Made by a program: the position numbers and the translations under genes. Shown here one piece after another: positions 20,444-30,343 of a stretch of 64,000 nt of DNA; the stretch's first letter is position 1; each line of letters starts with the position of its first letter. The notes under the pieces were generated by a model. The model was not told the DNA's origin, made no database searches, and was given only the letters and a program-made list of their open reading frames with translations. The stretch comes from an uncultured Ilumatobacter sp. Its GTDB lineage: Bacteria; Actinomycetota; Acidimicrobiia; Acidimicrobiales; Ilumatobacteraceae. The stretch covers positions 1 through 64,000 of the forward strand of contig CALFRK010000046.1 in NCBI GenBank assembly GCA_937919625.1. The letters are read 5' to 3'.

Positions 20444-22714
20444 GTGAGGCGAATCCTGCTTCTGACGGCGATCGCGCTACTGATCGGCGTGGTTGGAGCA
20501 ACCGCGAGCGACAACCCGGTCACCTCGCGGGCCACGCCAGGCGACGGACTCGTAGTGCAGGCGCAGAGCTACGCCGTTACCAGCGGATCGATGGCGCATT
20601 TCGAGCTGCTCGTAAACGCCAACGTTCCCGAAATCGCGCCGACCACCACCACGACCACCACCACCACGACCACCACCACCACCACGACCACCACCACCAC
20701 CACCACAACCGTGCCTGATGCTGGGGTCGTTTCGCCCAGCTCGACCGAGCCCCCTGGCGTGACGATCGTCGAGCCGCCCACCGTCACAACACTTCCGGCG
20801 CCAACAACCACCGTCGATCCCGGTCCGGAGATGACCGTTCAGATCCGCGCCCATCGCCGGCTCACCAGCCGAGCTGCCGTCGAGCTTTCGCTCGGGGACT
20901 CGGTCGGCCCGGTGATTGACATTCTCGAGTTCGAACTCAGCAAGGTGAGTCGTTTTGACAGCGCCACCGGACAACGACTACTCGAGCTCGACGTGCCGAT
21001 CACGGGCGGCATCGCTGACGTAAATCGGCTCGACCTGCTCGAGCCCGGCGTTTATCCGATCACGATCCAGATCCGCCGCGATTCAGCGCTCGTCACCGCC
21101 CACACGACCTTCCTTGAAATTGTCGATGCCGCCGGCATCGGGCGCGGCCCGTTTCAGTTCAGCGTGTTGGCGACGATTGACGATCCCGGTCCCGCCCCCG
21201 ACTCGACCGAGCTGGAGGCCGTCGCTGCCGGCCTGCGCGAGATCGCCGATCTGGCATCGGCTACGGGTGCTCCGATCGCGGTCGCCTTACCTCCTGGTGT
21301 CACCAAGGATGTGTTCAGCAAAGATCTCGAGGTGGCCGACCAGCTGACCGCCGCGCTCGACGCCAACGACGTGCTGATTGCCCTTCCCGATCACCCACTC
21401 GATCCCTCTGCTGCGGCTGAGAACGACCTGAACAAACTGTTCCAGACACTGCTCGACGAAGGTCAAGCAACGTTGTCTGAACTGTTTCCGATTCGCCCGG
21501 TGACACGCGGCGCCTGGCCCACACACGACCAGCTCACGCCGGAGGGTGCCGCCTTGCTCCGCGATGTCGGCTTTCCGATGCTTGTGGTGCCCTTCGACCG
21601 ATACCTCGGCTACCAAGGCAGCCTCGTCGACCTGACCGACACCTCACTGCTATTGAGCGCCCGCCTGCCCGATCGGACGGTGATCCGGATGCTCGTCGTC
21701 GATCCGATCACCGAACTACTCGAGCCCGACAGCAACACCGGCAACTCACCCGCCGAAGCTGCTGTTTTGCTGATGGCCACCACGAGCGCCATGCGATACC
21801 AGCTCGATCCCGATCTGCGCTCGATGGTGCTCACCACCGCCGACCTGACCGCCCCCGACCCAGAGGTACTGGCCCACCTCGAACAATTCGTGGCCGAGCA
21901 CCCCGCCTATTCGTTCCAACCGCTCGACCGGATCGCTGACATCACCAACATGTTTTTCGTCGACGGTCTTCCGGTCACCGTCGAGCTCGATACGCGAGCC
22001 TCGGTATCGCTGAAGGGCAGGGTTCAACGCCTCGACGAGACCAGGTTGCGGATGGCTGATGTCGAGTCGATGTTGCCAGACTCAGACGACCGACCAGATG
22101 GCTGGGAATCGACGCTGCTAACGGCTCTGTCCACCGGCCTGAGTGCCCAGCAAGCGAACCTTCTGGTCGATCAAGTGCTCGCCGACCTTGAACAGATCCG
22201 TCAGGCCGTTCGACAACCAGAAACATTCCCGTTCACGATCACCGGGCGCAACGCTGACATCCCGGTGCGAATCCCAAACACCAGCGATACGCCGCTGCGT
22301 GTCGTCGTGCGTCTCGCCGCCGAGAAGCTCACTTTCGCTGCGGAAGGGGTCGAGGCGGTTTTGCTTCCGAACTCGATCACCGCCGTTCCAGTGCCGGTAA
22401 CCACCCGATCAAACGGTGTCTTTCCTGTACTTGTCGAGGTCGTCACTCCGGCCGGGAATCGGCTCACCGAGCCAGTCGAGTTGACTGCCCGGGTCAGCAC
22501 GCTGACGGGCCTTGGCCGCGTTTTTACGGTCGGAGCCCTGCTGGTGCTGGCCACATGGTGGTTCAGTTACTTTCGTCGCCGGCGTAGGGCCGAGCGCGTC
22601 CGCGACGTCGAGATGACCCGCTCACGGCACCCGGCTCAACCGGAACATCCAGAACCCGAGACCACGCACGACGAGAACGACACCCACGGCGACACGGGGC
22701 GTTCCGAGGAGTAA
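20444..22714 (+). CDS. Large exported single-pass membrane protein, DUF6049-like
   Basis: Predicted envelope protein of 756 aa. A signal peptide (about 1-22) is followed by a large extracytoplasmic part and a single C-terminal helix near residues 690-710 with an arginine-rich cytoplasmic stop (RRRRRAERVR). Residues 67-89 are 23 consecutive threonines inside a Thr/Pro linker. Position and architecture correspond to mycobacterial Rv3909 (DUF6049), which precedes MurJ; a role with peptidoglycan lipid II export is only inferred from that. Start: GTG at 20444, 36 bases after the GNAT stop. The downstream DegV start lies 12 bases past its stop, suggesting one transcript. Confidence 0.8.
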   Translation: MRRILLLTAIALLIGVVGATASDNPVTSRATPGDGLVVQAQSYAVTSGSMAHFELLVNANVPEIAPTTTTTTTTTTTTTTTTTTTTTTTVPDAGVVSPSSTEPPGVTIVEPPTVTTLPAPTTTVDPGPEMTVQIRAHRRLTSRAAVELSLGDSVGPVIDILEFELSKVSRFDSATGQRLLELDVPITGGIADVNRLDLLEPGVYPITIQIRRDSALVTAHTTFLEIVDAAGIGRGPFQFSVLATIDDPGPAPDSTELEAVAAGLREIADLASATGAPIAVALPPGVTKDVFSKDLEVADQLTAALDANDVLIALPDHPLDPSAAAENDLNKLFQTLLDEGQATLSELFPIRPVTRGAWPTHDQLTPEGAALLRDVGFPMLVVPFDRYLGYQGSLVDLTDTSLLLSARLPDRTVIRMLVVDPITELLEPDSNTGNSPAEAAVLLMATTSAMRYQLDPDLRSMVLTTADLTAPDPEVLAHLEQFVAEHPAYSFQPLDRIADITNMFFVDGLPVTVELDTRASVSLKGRVQRLDETRLRMADVESMLPDSDDRPDGWESTLLTALSTGLSAQQANLLVDQVLADLEQIRQAVRQPETFPFTITGRNADIPVRIPNTSDTPLRVVVRLAAEKLTFAAEGVEAVLLPNSITAVPVPVTTRSNGVFPVLVEVVTPAGNRLTEPVELTARVSTLTGLGRVFTVGALLVLATWWFSYFRRRRRAERVRDVEMTRSRHPAQPEHPEPETTHDENDTHGDTGRSEE
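20642..20710 (+). repeat. ACC-rich triplet repeat coding for 23 threonines
   Basis: Sixty-nine bases of ACC with scattered ACG and one ACA, all threonine. The interspersed synonymous codons argue for selection on the protein rather than pure slippage. Such polythreonine linkers are frequent in exported proteins of Acidimicrobiia. Confidence 0.9.
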
Positions 22715-22726
22715 GCTCGAATCTCC

Positions 22727-23566
22727 GTGAGCATCCGTATCGTCACCGACTCTTCCTGCGACCTGCCCGAATCGGTCGTGACTGCCAACGACGTCCGCGT
22801 CGTGCCTCTCTCGATTCGCTTCGGAGACGAAGAGTTCATCGATCGTGAGCAGCTTTCCACCAGCGAGTTCTGGGCTCGCTGCGCGCAACAAGACACGCTG
22901 CCAGAGACCGCCGCGCCGGCACCCGGCCAGTTCGAAGTGGCATATCGCGAACTTTCCGCAGACGGCGCCACCGGAATCGTCGTCGTCTCCCTGTCGGGTG
23001 CGCTGTCGGCCACTATGCAGAGCGCTGAACTGGCCGCCCGCTCGGTTACCGACACGGTTCCGGTCCGCGTCGTCGACAGCCGTACGGTCAGCCTTGGCGT
23101 CGGATCGATCGTTGTGGCCTGCGCCCGACTGGCCGCAGCCGGTGGTTCACTCGACGAGGTCGAGGCGCTCGCCCGCGACCGTGCCGCGCGTACCCATGTG
23201 TTCGGTGCCCTCGACACGCTCGACAACCTCAAGAAGGGTGGTCGGATCGGCAACGCCAAGGCACTGCTCGCCACAGCATTGGCGATCAAGCCGATCATCG
23301 AGGTGGTCGATGGGCAAGTCGAGCAGGGGGGCAAGCAACGAACCCGTTCGAAAGCCCTCAAGTTCCTGGTCGAGAAAGTCCGCGAATACGAGGGCCGGAT
23401 CGGCGACCTCGCCGTACTCCAGGCTGACTGCAGCGATGTCGACCAGTTCGTCGAGATGTTGCGACCACTCCACAATGGCGAGATCATCATTGGTGATATC
23501 GGTCCCGTGATCGGTACCCACGCCGGCCGTGGCACGATCGGCATCGCCTTCGACGTCATCGACTGA
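22727..23566 (+). CDS. DegV family fatty-acid-binding protein
   Basis: DegV-fold protein (279 aa, GTG start). It starts SIRIVTDSSCDLPESVV, the family's N-terminal TDSSCDLP motif, and has SQPAP-like TAAPAPGQFE, VSLSGALSATMQSA, VVDSRTVSLGVG and FGALDTLDNLKKGGRIGNAKAL, which line the fatty-acid pocket. DegV/FakB proteins present fatty acids to a FakA kinase for phospholipid synthesis; no fakA is visible here. Confidence 0.92.
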   Translation: MSIRIVTDSSCDLPESVVTANDVRVVPLSIRFGDEEFIDREQLSTSEFWARCAQQDTLPETAAPAPGQFEVAYRELSADGATGIVVVSLSGALSATMQSAELAARSVTDTVPVRVVDSRTVSLGVGSIVVACARLAAAGGSLDEVEALARDRAARTHVFGALDTLDNLKKGGRIGNAKALLATALAIKPIIEVVDGQVEQGGKQRTRSKALKFLVEKVREYEGRIGDLAVLQADCSDVDQFVEMLRPLHNGEIIIGDIGPVIGTHAGRGTIGIAFDVID

Positions 23567-23650: not shown

Positions 23651-25447
23651 ATGCCCATGAGTGCCGCACCTCCCCCGCACGCGCCAGCAGGTGAACTGTT
23701 GGCCGGCCGATACCGGCTCGAGCGCCGGATCGGGCAGGGCGGGATGGCCGAGGTGTGGGTGGCGACCGACAACGATCTCGATCGCAAGGTCGCAATCAAG
23801 TGGCTCAAGACGAATCTTGCCGGCGACCCGGTGGTGGCCGAACGATTCCGGCGCGAAGCGATCGCCGTCGCACGCCTCAGCCATCCGAACATCGTCGCCG
23901 TACACGATGTCGTCATCCACGAAGGTCGCCAAGCGGTGGTAATGCAGCTCGTCGACGGCAAGAGCCTGCGCCAGCTGCTCGATTCGCAAAAGCGGCTCGG
24001 CCCCGAGCTCACGATTCACATCGGCGCCGCTATCGCCGGCGCCCTCGACGAGGCCCATCGCGCCGGCTTCGTGCATCGCGACGTCAAGCCGGGCAACATT
24101 CTCGTCACTTCAGACGGCCGCGTACTGTTGACCGACTTCGGGATCGCCAAGGGCCTGCAGGCCGGCGACGAAGACCTCACCAGCGACAACGTGATGATGG
24201 GTACGGCCAAGTACCTTTCGCCCGAGCAGGTGCGCGGACGCCGCCTCGACGGGCGGGCCGACCTGTATTCGCTCGGACTCGTGCTGTACGAGTGCCTCGC
24301 TGGGCGGGTGCCGTTCCTTGGCGAAAGCGATGCGGACACGGCGCTGGCCCGCCTCCAGCGCGATCCGACCGACCTCGGCCATCTGCGCCCGACACTGCCG
24401 ATCGGGCTGGTAAACCTGATCCACAAGACGCTTGCCCGCAATCCGGCGCACCGCCCGCAGAGCGGAACCGATCTGCGCAGTTCCCTACTCTCGGTCGACA
24501 CCACCCCACCCCGTATCGACGGAACCCCAGCCGATCCGCCACCGCGTATCGCCAACCCGCCGACGCGTGCGTTGGGCGCCGGGCCCGGCATACCAGGCGA
24601 TCCCCACGTCAGCGCCGCCGTGCCGGTCACCCGCAAGTACGAGCCGCGCCACCAGCGAGCGACACCGACATCGCTGCCCCGCCGCGACAACACGCCGCCG
24701 TCACCATTGCCCATCCGCGGCATGCCGGCCCGCCAATATCAGCAACGTTGGACCCCATCGCTGGTCGTCGTCAGCTCGCTGCTTATCGCTGCGCTACTGG
24801 TGGCCGGCGTACTCTTCGTACGCGTCAATCGCGGAGATGACGGAAGCGACTTCACCGGCGGCACCGTGGCTCCGAGCGTCACCTTGAATCCCGGCGATCA
24901 GGCTTTGGTCGACCCGGCCGCCCAGGTCGATGCCAACCCGCCGATCGATGCCAGCCCACCAAATGCTGATGGCACCGTCGCGGCACCCAGCGATGTGCGG
25001 ATCATGGGCGTGCAGGCCTGGGATCCCGATAGCTCCACCGGTGAAGAAAACAATGCCCAGGCGGCTCTTGCGCTCGCAGACGGCAGCGCCAGCACCTCAT
25101 GGCCGACCGAGTGTTACCAAGACCGCTATCTCGGCGGCAAACGCGGAGTTGGATTGATCCTCGATCTTTCGGCGGCTTCGCCTGGCACCCTCACGCTCGA
25201 AACGCTCAACGCCCCGTACCAGATCGATGTCTACACCGCCACCACAGCGGGCTCGCCGGCCGACCTCGATGCGTGGAGCAAGGTCGGCGCCACCCAGTTC
25301 GGAGAACAGCCAGGGCAAGTCACCGTGGCGGTCGATGTTTCCGCAACCCACCTGCTTGTTTGGCTCAAAGAGCTCGGCCCTGACGCGGCCTGCACGAACG
25401 CCCACCCGTATCGGGGTCGGCTCGGAGAGATCTCCTACCAGCCGTGA
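23651..25447 (+). CDS. Membrane Ser/Thr protein kinase with MurJ-type discoidin-like outer domain
   Basis: Receptor-like kinase of 598 aa. The kinase domain (about 20-282) has all catalytic elements: GQGGMAEV loop (28-35), VAIK Lys50, helix-C Glu69, HRDVKPGN (142-149, Asp144), DFG (162-164) and SPE (190-192). A Pro-rich juxtamembrane segment leads to one helix (about 370-391) and an outer part whose last 150 residues (IMGVQAWDP to YRGRLGEISY) resemble the carbohydrate-binding-like tail of mycobacterial MviN/MurJ. It lies where MurJ-pseudokinase is usually found, between the DUF6049-like gene and the sigM-like gene, but there is no flippase domain. Its stop overlaps the sigma gene (GTGA). Confidence 0.88.
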   Translation: MPMSAAPPPHAPAGELLAGRYRLERRIGQGGMAEVWVATDNDLDRKVAIKWLKTNLAGDPVVAERFRREAIAVARLSHPNIVAVHDVVIHEGRQAVVMQLVDGKSLRQLLDSQKRLGPELTIHIGAAIAGALDEAHRAGFVHRDVKPGNILVTSDGRVLLTDFGIAKGLQAGDEDLTSDNVMMGTAKYLSPEQVRGRRLDGRADLYSLGLVLYECLAGRVPFLGESDADTALARLQRDPTDLGHLRPTLPIGLVNLIHKTLARNPAHRPQSGTDLRSSLLSVDTTPPRIDGTPADPPPRIANPPTRALGAGPGIPGDPHVSAAVPVTRKYEPRHQRATPTSLPRRDNTPPSPLPIRGMPARQYQQRWTPSLVVVSSLLIAALLVAGVLFVRVNRGDDGSDFTGGTVAPSVTLNPGDQALVDPAAQVDANPPIDASPPNADGTVAAPSDVRIMGVQAWDPDSSTGEENNAQAALALADGSASTSWPTECYQDRYLGGKRGVGLILDLSAASPGTLTLETLNAPYQIDVYTATTAGSPADLDAWSKVGATQFGEQPGQVTVAVDVSATHLLVWLKELGPDAACTNAHPYRGRLGEISYQP

Positions 25448-26052
25448 CCACGATCGATCGGTCCGACAGCGATCTTGTTGCAGCCGCTCAGGGTGGTGAC
25501 ACGGCAGCGATGGACCAACTGCTCAGGCGACACTACGGCCGTGTTCACGCCGTGTGCCGTCGCATCGCCGGCAGCACCCGTGACGCCGACGACGCCGCCC
25601 AGGAGGCCATGATTCGGGTCGTTCGCAACCTGGACCGCTTCGACGGCCGTGCCGCTTTCGGAACCTGGGTGTATCGGATCGCAACCAACACTGCACTCGA
25701 CGAACTGCGCAAACGAAAGCGACAACCACAGCTCCACATCGTCGACGACGACGACCTTCGTGCGTCCAACGAGCCGGTCGACGATCTCGCTCACCGCCAT
25801 ATCGATAGCGTCGTCGATCGCATAACGATCGACCAGGCGCTTGCCGAGTTGCCCGAAGAATTTCGGACAGCTGTCGTCATGCGCGATGTCGGCGATCTCG
25901 ACTATGCCGAAATCGCGGCCGCTCTCGATCTGCCGATCGGTACGGTCAAATCGCGGATCGCCCGCGGGCGTCGTGTACTGATCGAAAAACTCGGGAACCG
26001 CGACGACCCCGACGAACGTCCAAACAGCAACCCCATACAACGCCATGAATGA
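25444..26052 (+). CDS. ECF RNA polymerase sigma factor, SigM-like
   Basis: Extracytoplasmic-function sigma factor (202 aa). Region 2 spans HYGRVHAVCRRIAGSTRDADDAAQEAMIRVVRNLDRFDGRAAFGTWVYRIATNTALDELRKRKR in general pattern (about 23-90); region 4 has LPEEFRTAVVMRDVGDLDYAEIA and GTVKSRIARGR. The position between a kinase/MurJ-type gene and an anti-sigma gene, with trxB next, is that of sigM in mycobacteria. GTG start overlapping the kinase stop; eight-base overlap with the anti-sigma gene. The three are likely co-translated. Confidence 0.92.
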   Translation: MTTIDRSDSDLVAAAQGGDTAAMDQLLRRHYGRVHAVCRRIAGSTRDADDAAQEAMIRVVRNLDRFDGRAAFGTWVYRIATNTALDELRKRKRQPQLHIVDDDDLRASNEPVDDLAHRHIDSVVDRITIDQALAELPEEFRTAVVMRDVGDLDYAEIAAALDLPIGTVKSRIARGRRVLIEKLGNRDDPDERPNSNPIQRHE

Positions 26053-26929
26053 CGAGCAGTACCTCCTTGCGAGCGCGTATCTCGACGGTGAACTCACCAA
26101 CGAGCAACGTGTAGTCGCCGAAGCCGACCCGGACGTGATGTCCGAGGTCGATCAGATGCTCGCCGTACAGGCACAGCTTCGATCGGTCGAACCGCCATCG
26201 GACGCAGCCCGCGAGGCAGCCATAGGTGCCGCCATGGCCGCCTTTTCGGGCGCAGCGGTACGCCCCGCTCCGCCTGTCAACGCTGTCACGCGAACAGTCG
26301 CTTTTCGGCCTCGGCCGTCGTATACCATGTATCTCGGCGTTGCCGCATCCCTTGTGGCGATCGGTTTGCTTGGGCTGGTCGTGGCAACAGGTCTGAGAAG
26401 CAGCGACGACGACGCCTTCTTATCTCGTGTCGGCAATGATCAGACCGCCGACGAGCCAGCCGCAGAGTCCCTTGACACGGCGGCCGAGGCCGGCGATGGT
26501 CCCAGTTTTGCCGAGTCCGCCGAGTCCGAACTTGCCGACGCGGCCAGTAGCGCGGCGACTGCCCAAGAGTTGCCCGCCTCTGCCGGCGGCGATGCTGAAC
26601 CAGCTTCAGACCCCGCCGTGGCGGCGGCCGAACCCGCAGCCGACAGCGAAGCCAACGTTTTGCCATCGGGGATCGACCCAACCAAGCCACTCACGACATC
26701 CGACGAGCTTGGCGCCTTTGGTTCGTATCTCATTGATCTCCGGGTCGCCCGTGCTTTGCCGGCGACACCCGAATCCCGCTGTCCGCAACAGGTCATCTTG
26801 GGGTCGACCCAGTACATCTTGGACGGTCTGACGCTCGACGTCTTGGTGGCGGTCGACGAACAGCAACGCACCGTCACGGCGATCGATCCAGACACCTGTG
26901 TGGCGCTCGTGGTCGGTCCACTGTTCTAG
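26045..26929 (+). CDS. Membrane anti-sigma factor
   Basis: Likely regulator of the preceding sigma factor (294 aa). The N terminus has the anti-sigma pattern LASAYLDGELTNEQRVVAEA (8-27) but no zinc HxxxCxxC motif. One membrane helix lies at about 97-117 (LGVAASLVAIGLLGLVVATG); a long Ala/Ser/Glu-rich outer linker follows, then a small C-terminal domain with two cysteines. The eight-base overlap with the sigma gene supports paired function. Confidence 0.8.
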   Translation: MNDEQYLLASAYLDGELTNEQRVVAEADPDVMSEVDQMLAVQAQLRSVEPPSDAAREAAIGAAMAAFSGAAVRPAPPVNAVTRTVAFRPRPSYTMYLGVAASLVAIGLLGLVVATGLRSSDDDAFLSRVGNDQTADEPAAESLDTAAEAGDGPSFAESAESELADAASSAATAQELPASAGGDAEPASDPAVAAAEPAADSEANVLPSGIDPTKPLTTSDELGAFGSYLIDLRVARALPATPESRCPQQVILGSTQYILDGLTLDVLVAVDEQQRTVTAIDPDTCVALVVGPLF

Positions 26930-27315: not shown

Positions 27316-28266
27316 ATGGCCGACAACGTCCGCAATGTCATCATTATCGGATCGGGTCCAGCCGGCCTGACGGCGTCGATTTACTGTGCTCGCGCAAATC
27401 TCGTGCCGCTTGTGATCGAGGGCGAGCCGTCATCCACATCTGATCAGCCTGGTGGACAGCTGATGCTGACCACCGAGGTCGAGAACTTTCCAGGATTTCC
27501 TGACGGGATCATGGGCCCAGAGTTGATGATGAACTTTCGCTCTCAGGCCGTTCGGTTCGGTGCCGAGTTCGTTACCGCCAAGGTGACTCGTGTCGACTTC
27601 TCGCAGCGCCCGTTCAAGGTGTGGGTCGGCGACGACGAATACCAGGCCCATTCAATAATCGTGTCGACTGGCGCCCGTTCGTTGATGCTCGGCCTCGAAT
27701 CCGAAGCCCGTCTGCTCGGTCACGGTGTGTCGACCTGCGCGACCTGCGACGGGTTTTTCTTTCGTGGCCACAACATCGCCGTGATAGGTGGCGGCGATTC
27801 GGCGATCGAGGAGGCCACATTCCTCACCAAGTTCGCCGACAGGGTCACCCTGATTCATCGCCGTGACGAGTTGCGCGCCAGCAAGATCATGCGTGACCGG
27901 GCGGTCGCCAACCCCAAGATCGATTTCCTGTGGAACCATACGGTTACCGAAATTCACGGCACTGACAAGGTTGAGGGTATTCAGGTCACCTCCACGGTCG
28001 ATGGCAGGGTCCACGATCTCGACGTCACCGGAGTGTTCGTCGCGATTGGTCATCGCCCGAACACCGATCTATTCACTGATGTGCTCGACATGGAAGACAG
28101 CGGATACCTCAGCACTCAGCCCGACTCGAGCTATACCAACGTCGAGGGTGTCTTCGCCTGCGGTGACGTGCAGGATCACACATACCGACAGGCGATCACC
28201 GCTGCGGGCAGCGGATGTATGGCGGCGATCGACGCCGAGCGCTGGCTCGAATCTCAGCACGGCTGA
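27316..28266 (+). CDS. trxB: Thioredoxin reductase
   Basis: NADPH-dependent flavoprotein that reduces thioredoxin (316 aa). FAD motif IIGSGPAGLTASIY near residue 10, redox-active CATC (about 139-142), NADPH motif GGGDSAIEEA and C-terminal FAD motif VFACGDVQD are all intact. In most Actinobacteria trxA follows directly; here an antitoxin-like gene and 250 bases separate them. A GGAGAG ribosome site precedes the ATG. Confidence 0.96.
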   Translation: MADNVRNVIIIGSGPAGLTASIYCARANLVPLVIEGEPSSTSDQPGGQLMLTTEVENFPGFPDGIMGPELMMNFRSQAVRFGAEFVTAKVTRVDFSQRPFKVWVGDDEYQAHSIIVSTGARSLMLGLESEARLLGHGVSTCATCDGFFFRGHNIAVIGGGDSAIEEATFLTKFADRVTLIHRRDELRASKIMRDRAVANPKIDFLWNHTVTEIHGTDKVEGIQVTSTVDGRVHDLDVTGVFVAIGHRPNTDLFTDVLDMEDSGYLSTQPDSSYTNVEGVFACGDVQDHTYRQAITAAGSGCMAAIDAERWLESQHG

Positions 28267-29036: not shown

Positions 29037-29375
29037 ATGGCCAACGGGATCACCAACCTCACCAGCTCCACTTTCGACGAGACGGTGGCTGCTTCATCGA
29101 CACCCGTGCTGGTCGACTTTTGGGCTGAGTGGTGTGGCCCGTGCAAGCAGATCGCCCCGCTTCTCGAAGAGATCGCGGGCGAGTACCCCGACCAGATCCG
29201 AATCACCAAGCTCAATGTCGACGAAAGCCCAGACATCGCCATCCGATACAGCGTCATGAGCATCCCCACCCTGCTCGTGATTCAGAACGGCGACGTCAAA
29301 AAGAAGATCGTCGGCGCCAAGGGCAAGGGTGCACTTCTCCAGGAGCTCAACGAATTTCTCGCTATTTCCCGCTGA
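29037..29375 (+). CDS. trxA: Thioredoxin
   Basis: Classical thioredoxin (112 aa): VDFWAEWCGPCKQIAPLLEE with the WCGPC active site (about 30-34), the cis-proline loop SIPTLLVIQNG and the C-terminal helix. ATG at 29037 preceded by AAAGGAA. Works with TrxB. The 3' end carries the likely ribosome site and start of the CwlM-like gene (overlap of 22 bases). Confidence 0.95.
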   Translation: MANGITNLTSSTFDETVAASSTPVLVDFWAEWCGPCKQIAPLLEEIAGEYPDQIRITKLNVDESPDIAIRYSVMSIPTLLVIQNGDVKKKIVGAKGKGALLQELNEFLAISR

Positions 29376-30343
29376 CTCCCGGTCAGCGCGGCGAGGCGAT
29401 CCGTGATCTACAACGCCGCCTCGTTGCCGCCGGGTACATGCCCGCCGGTGCCGAAGCGGGCCTCTTTTGCGATGCGACTCAAGCGTCGCTGCGACAGTTC
29501 CAACAAGACCGCGGCCTGCACCTGACCGGGATCTGTGACGAGGACACCTGGCGGGCGATTGTCGAGGCATCGTGGAAGCTGGGTGACCGGCTGTTGGTGC
29601 TGTTGGCACCAAATCTTCGCGGCGACGATGTCGGTGAGTTGCAGTCGTCACTGGCCCGAATCGGATTTGATTCCGGTCGCGTCGACGGCATCTTTGGGCC
29701 CGCCACCGAGCGTGCGCTCGAGGATTTCCAAAACAACTGCGGTCTGTACGTCGATGGCGTGTGTGGGGCGGCCACCGTACGCGCACTTCAAGTACTTGCC
29801 CGGCAAACTGGCAGCGGACCGGGAATCACGGCCGTACGGGAACTGCATGCCCTCACAGCTTCTGCCAGGTCGTTGGCTGAACTGCGGATCGTGATCGGCC
29901 AGTTTGGAGGCCTGAGCACCATCTCGCGCCAGCTTGTTCGATCGTTACGGCAACGCAGCGCTGCTGTCATCGCATCCGACGAGCCAGACTCGGCGGCCCA
30001 GGCGGCGGCCGCCAATCGATTCGCAGCCAACGTCTATGTCGGCTTCGAAACCAGCGGCAGCTCGGTCGCCACGATCCACTATTACGCGGTGCCACAGTTC
30101 GAGTCGGCCGGCGGCCGGGCGCTGGCGGTTGCAATCTCCGACTCGTGTCGATCAGCATCGATCGGCACGCAACCCGTGGTTCAGGGGATGCGACTACCTG
30201 TGTTGCGAGAGACCCGGATGCCCGCTGTGCTGCTCAGTGTCGGACCTGTCCAACAAGCCCTCGACGAGGCCACTGAGCTGGTGAAATCAATCGTTGATGC
30301 GCTTGAAGTCTGGGCCGCTGGATCAACGTTATCCACAGGTTGA
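29354..30343 (+). CDS. cwlM: CwlM-like peptidoglycan-binding protein with degenerate amidase domain
   Basis: Homologue, by synteny and layout, of mycobacterial CwlM, the regulator of MurA (329 aa). Two peptidoglycan-binding repeats (about 8-68, with DLQRRLVAAGY and QASLRQFQQDRGL; about 85-145, with LQSSLARIGF and RALEDFQNNCGL) are followed by an amidase_3-like domain (about 160-320). Zinc ligands are missing: the DPGHGG position reads IGQFGG and the SIHAN position reads VGFET. No ATG, GTG or TTG lies in frame near the N terminus. AGGAG at 29341-29345 stands eight bases before an ATT (29354), the probable start; CTG at 29372 is the alternative. Confidence 0.72.
   Translation: MSRYFPLTPGQRGEAIRDLQRRLVAAGYMPAGAEAGLFCDATQASLRQFQQDRGLHLTGICDEDTWRAIVEASWKLGDRLLVLLAPNLRGDDVGELQSSLARIGFDSGRVDGIFGPATERALEDFQNNCGLYVDGVCGAATVRALQVLARQTGSGPGITAVRELHALTASARSLAELRIVIGQFGGLSTISRQLVRSLRQRSAAVIASDEPDSAAQAAAANRFAANVYVGFETSGSSVATIHYYAVPQFESAGGRALAVAISDSCRSASIGTQPVVQGMRLPVLRETRMPAVLLSVGPVQQALDEATELVKSIVDALEVWAAGSTLSTG

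Follow-up and report, generated by a model that had tools for sequence, protein, structure and literature searches.

A probable free-standing counterpart, complete in its catalytic motifs, of the regulatory arm of mycobacterial MurJ

The protein discussed in this report has its closest described relative in the C-terminal arm of the Mycobacterium tuberculosis flippase MviN/MurJ (Rv3910; PDB IDs 3OTV, 3OUK, 3OUN, and 3UQC). In mycobacteria, according to the pertinent passages of PMC6180346 and PMC12599244, PknB phosphorylates the dead kinase domain of MviN, whereupon FhaA is recruited and peptidoglycan synthesis is lowered, and CwlM in its unphosphorylated state binds the MurJ linker. MviN belongs to the pseudokinase family ActPs3, which is defined by degraded motifs (O'Boyle et al. 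2025, PMC12599244); the passages available from that paper describe the other members as lacking the carbohydrate-binding domain of MviN. The distributions given in PMC10166564 (2023) and PMC12599244 (2025) are narrower than the one found here, and the passages available from the two papers mention neither a separate nor an active form.

Here we describe a gene at positions 23651-25447 of a 64,000-nucleotide stretch of DNA from an uncultured Ilumatobacter sp. (contig CALFRK010000046.1), referred to below as the window. We read its product, with a probability of about 0.72, as the arm that regulates mycobacterial MurJ in a version that stands alone and is complete in its catalytic motifs; taken by itself, the identity of the protein as an active counterpart of the MviN arm is very likely. 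The papers listed in our searches of the open literature included no description of an active MurJ-locus kinase; the search for MurJ together with discoidin gave no relevant paper, that on the evolution of the kinase gave nothing, and of the Streptomyces coelicolor tags for this locus only the one of the sigma factor was named in the papers listed. What appears to be new is that the arm exists free and with complete motifs, and how widely it does so, neither of which we met in those papers; the parts themselves are known.

The protein and its outer domain

The gene encodes a receptor-like protein with the following features.

23651..25447, + strand: MurJ-locus receptor-like Ser/Thr kinase, 598 residues (kinase, linker, one helix, outer domain)
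23711..24460, + strand: kinase domain, residues 21-270, with Lys50, Glu69, Asp144, Asn149, and Asp162
24179..24181, + strand: activation-loop Thr177, a Thr in 99% of the 76 locus kinases that are complete in five catalytic residues
24461..24757, + strand: juxtamembrane linker on the cytosolic side, with many Pro and Thr residues
24683..24697, + strand: juxtamembrane motif R-D-N-T-P (Thr348), a candidate autophosphorylation or FHA-docking site
24758..24826, + strand: single predicted transmembrane helix, residues ~370-392 (Kyte-Doolittle)
24986..25444, + strand: outer domain, residues 446-598, a homologue of the MviN tail with a predicted CBM32/discoidin fold

Residues 21-270 match the Pfam family Pkinase (PF00069) with 156 bits against a cut-off of 31.7, and the motifs, read directly and aligned, are all in place: the GQGGMAEV loop, the VAIK motif with Lys50, Glu69, HRDVKPGN (142-149), and DFG (162-164). 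By domain and motifs this appears to be a Hanks-type Ser/Thr kinase, and the word active is used here in the sense of sequence motifs. The protein has one hydrophobic stretch, where 19-residue windows with a mean Kyte-Doolittle value above 1.6 start at residues 366-377 (the best at 372, 2.9), and a helix is predicted between kinase and outer domain in 143 of the 144 surveyed proteins with a kinase match. A sequence-only reading of the window had described a kinase that looks active, with complete motifs (loop, VAIK, Glu69, HRD, and DFG), followed by one helix and an outer domain like the MviN tail; each element of that description was borne out, the activity as far as the motifs go. A scan of species genomes gave 155 loci, and among the 80 of them that were listed the nearest relatives with a name are for the most part metagenome bins assigned to Ilumatobacter, Ilumatobacteraceae, or Acidimicrobiaceae; the gene also occurs in a cultured relative, Desertimonas flava (L286).

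The homology of the outer domain (about residues 446-598) to the MviN tail was established with profiles; searches against Pfam and NCBIfam gave no match, and no Pfam family appeared up to E 5. The MviN tail, in the one protein scanned (L103:6500-10228), is likewise without a Pfam family, so that the domain awaits a model. The tail of the window kinase is found once each in 32 of 41 genomes (the window's own and 40 relatives). Profile A1, built from 29 outer domains, matches 134 of the 296 genomes that were drawn from the whole phylum; among its matches are reading frames of 1198-1523 residues, all of one family, that join MurJ, kinase, and outer domain in a single protein (seven were read). 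The fused protein is MviN, as the pseudokinase of one of the seven matches PDB 3OUN at E 9.6e-127. Aligned by hhalign, A1 matches the seven fused MviN tails with a probability of 99.7 (E 5.5e-26) and ten tails of inactive unfused locus kinases with a probability of 99.9 (E 4.5e-31). In the reverse direction, a profile of the MviN tail has a single match per genome in the seven genomes tested, which in the window's own genome is the kinase at 23651-25447 (E 2.5e-16).

Compared by sequence with the PDB, the outer domain by itself gave chance matches only, and its profile gave at best E 0.0098, for an F5/8 type C protein. AlphaFold2 models were confident both for the outer domain (pLDDT 95.2, pTM 0.90) and for the MviN tail (pLDDT 91.1, pTM 0.87, with related tails in its alignment). 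Searched separately against the PDB, the two models return the same fold as their best matches (CBM32, F5/8 type C, and DOC/IFT25-like), so the fold match on which the earlier reading had staked its comparison of the two tails was found. Three structures are tied as the best matches of the window model: IFT25 2yc4 (Z 14.6, rmsd 2.0, 121 residues aligned), CBM32 4a42 (Z 13.8, rmsd 2.2, 116 aligned), and the chitosan-binding module 4zxe (Z 13.7, rmsd 2.6, 124 aligned). The predicted model thus has the CBM32 or F5/8 type C fold in a sequence that no Pfam family matches. This fold would permit the binding of a glycan, although non-glycan domains of the same fold score equally. Two outer-domain cysteines, Cys488 (in TECY, 25112-25114) and Cys581 (in ACT, 25391-25393), may form a disulfide; they are common to most of the window's family and missing from rows L043-L050 of other families.

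The locus across the phylum

Stretches around the matches were compared at the level of the order (30 stretches; 31 other genomes matched) and of the phylum (120 stretches). A kinase was assigned to the MurJ locus where the fetched stretch included murJ or two or more of a set of seven marker genes; a stretch clipped by a contig end may be misfiled as lying elsewhere. The order that recurs across the phylum, with single genes missing, is cca, DUF6049, murJ, (degV), kinase with outer domain, sigM, trxB, trxA, cwlM, parB, parA, rsmG. The window kinase belongs to a locus of this type (cca, DUF6049, (murJ), (degV), kinase, sigM, trxB, trxA, cwlM, parB, parA) and lies in the characteristic position between DUF6049/murJ and sigM-trxB. 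The neighbors are listed below.

20444..22714, + strand: gene in the DUF6049 position, without a Pfam match; PF19516 is found at the same position in two relatives tested
22727..23566, + strand: degV-family gene, of the kind that lies between murJ (where present) and the kinase; here it lies between the DUF6049-like gene and the kinase
25444..26052, + strand: ECF sigma factor; SigM (NF007225) is its top NCBIfam match, with 140.9 bits, below the cut-off of 190
26045..26929, + strand: putative anti-sigma factor; zf-HC2 match below threshold; overlaps the sigma gene by 8 bases
27316..28266, + strand: trxB, named from the sequence-only reading and from synteny
29129..30343, + strand: CwlM-like gene; two stretches match PG_binding_1 and none matches Amidase_3; start of the reading frame approximate

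The claim that these are the neighbors of murJ stands overall, with reservations for two genes: the DUF6049-like gene owes its name to the PF19516 matches of the relatives, having no DUF6049 match of its own, and the anti-sigma assignment rests on a sub-threshold score. The protein in the DUF6049 position contains an unbroken run of 23 Thr from residue 67, likely an unstable repeat tract. The survey that had been called for, of the same split between flippase and kinase, found the unfused kinase with its outer domain across the phylum, in 107 unfused locus kinases that include those of the window's class.

The flippase had been called absent, which holds at the locus only. The window's own genome has one good, unfused murJ on another contig, the stand-alone gene that had been sought. 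A full MviN fusion elsewhere in this genome is rejected, since besides the unfused murJ there is only a second PF03023 match of 20.7 bits, below the cut-off of 27.4. The kinase at 23651-25447 itself has no MurJ flippase in the same polypeptide, as MviN proper does. Half of the unfused loci surveyed (53 of 106) have murJ within the fetched stretch, a figure that falls to 0 of 26 in the window's family; in the 11 genomes of this family that were examined, the main murJ is far off or on another contig. In a quick MurJ tree, from which the best MurJ of family f11 was dropped as too short, 14 displaced main murJ genes (families f1, f4, and f19) form one clade (SH-aLRT 99) that adjoins the locus murJ of four other families of the order (support 100). 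Because the displaced genes form a single clade beside locus murJ, the simplest reading is that murJ left the locus once in f1, f4, and f19 (for example in L001, where it would now be G000:C39:33407-34729) and that the kinase stayed. On the strength of the same placement we reject the idea that the window's family acquired a foreign murJ in place of its own.

The gene that follows the kinase raises the question of whether MurJ is the target at all, or a mere neighbor of a kinase whose true substrate is the SigM-type sigma factor or its anti-sigma factor. The GTG start of the sigma gene overlaps the kinase stop by 4 bases, and 40 of the 65 unfused loci in which the sigma frame is open at this place have a start codon in that frame no more than 12 bases ahead of the end of the kinase stop (40 of 100 when all loci are counted, fused ones included). 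The same measure in four neighboring stretches gives 4/57, 8/50, 13/82, and 12/86, or 7-16%. ECF groups under the control of Ser/Thr protein kinases are known, as passages of PMC8999054 describe, and in the window's family most loci have retained the sigma gene while murJ has moved away. However, the sigma gene of the window is followed by an anti-sigma gene, which the phosphorylation-controlled groups in those passages usually do not have, and the fused MviN retains its arm on the flippase. We regard a sigma system as the sole true target as rather unlikely, if the strongest of the alternatives. With the sigma start on the kinase stop in so many loci, a SigM output may be a rival to control of MurJ or a second branch of it.

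Catalytic residues and kinship of the kinase

All five catalytic residues are kept in 76 of the 107 unfused MurJ-locus kinases, the window included, and in none of the seven fused MviN proteins, in which four are replaced and the DFG Asp is aligned to a gap. For the 65 unfused locus kinases that come from other classes, the counts are 38 complete, 24 with a substitution, and 3 with gaps. The 31 incomplete unfused kinases include four with motif gaps (L051, L093, L138, and L184), and among the 103 that were fully read, 27 have a substitution. By family, again for fully read kinases, at least one complete locus kinase is found in 22 of 33; 11 families have only incomplete ones, and three are mixed. 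Catalytic motifs have been lost in f26 and f27, elsewhere in the class. In family f4, which belongs to the same order as the window, the locus kinase is degenerate, without DFG, and has kept its outer domain (L044:10249-11514). The kinase tree requires five or more switches of state, complete to incomplete or the reverse, the direction of which it does not give; the scatter of incomplete forms with differing substitutions would fit repeated loss. Between the two origins that had been offered, ancestral or re-activated, these counts favor the ancestral one.

Many families have lost catalytic residues while the outer domain and the locus persist, which could mean that even an intact catalytic domain works mainly as a scaffold in the manner of MviN, with the outer domain and a phosphorylated FHA dock conserved and catalysis dispensable. 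A juxtamembrane motif, R[DE]xTP, could be such a dock: it occurs in 9 of 28 genera of the window's order, against 0.3 expected from shuffling for a motif that was picked post hoc, and in 8 of the 9 carrier genera it lies 21-27 residues N-terminal of the helix. The other 19 genera of the order are without it, as are all 38 active kinases of the phylum outside the window's class. That 22 families have one or more members with all five residues, and that the activation-loop Thr is all but invariant among the complete kinases, argues that activity is selected there, and we consider a pure scaffold unlikely.

The relationship of the kinase domains was examined in a careful tree of 82 domains, a selection to which each family and state contributed between one and three rows. 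The tree splits into 45 rows (43 from the MurJ locus, including MviN, and two paralogues) and 37 rows of ordinary kinases and other paralogues, so that the active, inactive, and fused locus forms fall together, apart from PknA/PknB and the others, with moderate support (82/82). The branches of the pseudokinases are long. A constraint that joined five PknA/PknB-like rows to 14 kinases from the order of the window was rejected at p = 0.025, for a group named after the tree had been seen. The sequence-only reading had made its case depend on a phylogeny of the kinase against the MviN pseudokinases, and had named as fatal a grouping with PknB-type kinases together with a full MviN fusion elsewhere in the genome. 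The locus kinases fall, with this moderate support, on the MviN side of the split, and neither of the two was found.

Profile scores are less clear for the window kinase. The profile of the MviN pseudokinase gives it 38.5 bits and the PknB of its own genome 28.1, and gives three ordinary kinases of two other genomes (G281 and G077) 43-49. With the profile of the streptomycete-like pseudokinase, six locus kinases of other families score 108-136 bits and every ordinary kinase at most 99; the PknB of the window's own genome scores 82 and the window kinase 75. Here mycobacterial, for family f51, is a label inferred from its MviN and SigM matches, and streptomycete-like, for f46, is likewise inferred.

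The trees of kinase and MurJ agree on the nearest unfused relative of MviN, which is locus L129 in both: its kinase stands closest to MviN with support 95/84, and in the quick MurJ tree its unfused MurJ is the closest to fused MurJ, with support 91. L101 and L128 also group with L108 and L111 in both. At L129 (genome G239), an unfused locus, both the pseudokinase and MurJ are thus the nearest sampled relatives of the fused protein, and its state is perhaps the one that preceded the fusion. The trees conflict for family f13 (L049): its locus MurJ joins the MurJ of f52 and f59, a long way from the order to which f13 belongs, and its kinase groups with that order. The locus MurJ of f13, f59, and f52 (L049, L112, L124, and L104) forms a very divergent lineage with a branch of 2.67 and support of 100.

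The outer domain is also present on 37 proteins away from the MurJ locus, of which 33 have all five catalytic residues and three (L109, L115, and L126) have no kinase match; the carriers include L097, L099, L107, L110, L118, L123, L125, L133, L136, and L140, several of them adjoin a kinase on the opposite strand, and the tree places some of them close to PknB. It is improbable that an ordinary PknA/PknB-type kinase captured an MviN-type outer domain at the locus, the active kinase being a replacement and not a forerunner: the domain can evidently be shuffled, given its carriers outside the locus, most of them with a complete kinase, the support of the branch is moderate, and the streptomycete-like profile slightly favors the PknB of the genome over the window kinase, but the active locus kinases group with the pseudokinases and not with PknA/PknB, the two trees concur on the closest relatives of MviN, and complete and incomplete versions both occur at the locus in three families.

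A receptor circuit and its place among known systems

The best reading of the mycobacterial pseudokinase arm is that it descends from a free, active receptor kinase, of which catalysis was lost several times and which in mycobacteria was fused to MurJ. What the analysis shows is a kinase with complete motifs, a predicted helix, and an outer domain with a predicted fold of glycan-binding type, placed in a locus for the export of wall precursors, with PknB-PASTA, FhaA, and MurJ also in the genome. Control of lipid II export in Actinomycetota may originally have been the task of a dedicated active receptor kinase beside murJ, with a CBM32-like domain reading wall glycans or lipid II; catalysis would then have been lost repeatedly, PknB would have taken over the phosphorylation of the arm, and mycobacteria would have welded the dead kinase to MurJ, with the ancestral circuit kept in Acidimicrobiia and many other lineages. 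We put this history at somewhat less than even odds. Against the explanation as a whole stand a branch supported at only 82/82, the equivocal profile scores of the window kinase, the conflict of the f13 trees, the outer domain on the 37 non-locus proteins, and the departure of murJ from the locus in the window's family.

In the mechanism that we propose, which we advance tentatively in its present form, one helix would join a cytosolic Hanks-type kinase to an outer CBM32/discoidin-like domain, and the latter would bind a glycan-bearing ligand outside the membrane, such as lipid II or nascent or damaged peptidoglycan. Binding would alter dimerization and the phosphorylation of Thr177. The kinase would autophosphorylate its juxtamembrane linker to make an FHA dock, for which R[DE]xTP is a candidate, and would phosphorylate partners in its locus or network, namely MurJ, CwlM, FhaA, and possibly the overlapping ECF sigma factor or the anti-sigma factor. 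The outcome would be precursor export tuned to wall growth. Catalysis would have been lost in mycobacteria and in streptomycete-like lineages, the fusion to MurJ being an additional step in mycobacteria. Sensing of lipid II or wall glycans and signaling through CwlM or SigM, as suggested from the sequence at the outset, are at most plausible, given the outer-domain fold and the overlap of the kinase and sigma genes.

If the preferred reading is right, that the window kinase is a free and complete form of the MurJ arm, a mycobacterial oddity becomes a receptor-kinase family of the whole phylum; in the unfused loci examined, the outer domain is almost always carried by a separate kinase or pseudokinase gene. 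The family would provide a case of a kinase turned pseudokinase with its sensor retained, and the active relatives would allow a direct search for the substrate.

The comparison with known systems is as follows. With the arm of M. tuberculosis MviN, the window protein shares the locus, the kinase fold, the single helix, and a homologous outer domain; it differs in that its kinase is unfused to the flippase and has all the catalytic motifs. PknB, the Stk1-family PASTA kinase, has a similar catalytic domain and a similar receptor-like membrane layout, and its model NF033483 scores 331 bits with the window kinase. That score is below the cut-off of 450, however, the matched positions are 2-274 of 563, no PASTA part is matched, and the outer domain is different; with a true PknB elsewhere in the genome, we reject the identification of the window kinase as PknB. 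The window's own genome also carries both PknB-PASTA and FhaA, so the window kinase is additional to PknB. From ActPs3, compared by its description only, the window kinase differs, as it does from MviN proper, in keeping all five catalytic residues where degraded motifs are the rule, and the separate locus pseudokinases found here differ in carrying a domain like the MviN tail. CBM32 and F5/8 type C (discoidin) domains have their fold in common with the predicted outer domain, which is set apart from them by the lack of a Pfam match and by identities of 7-18% among the matches listed.
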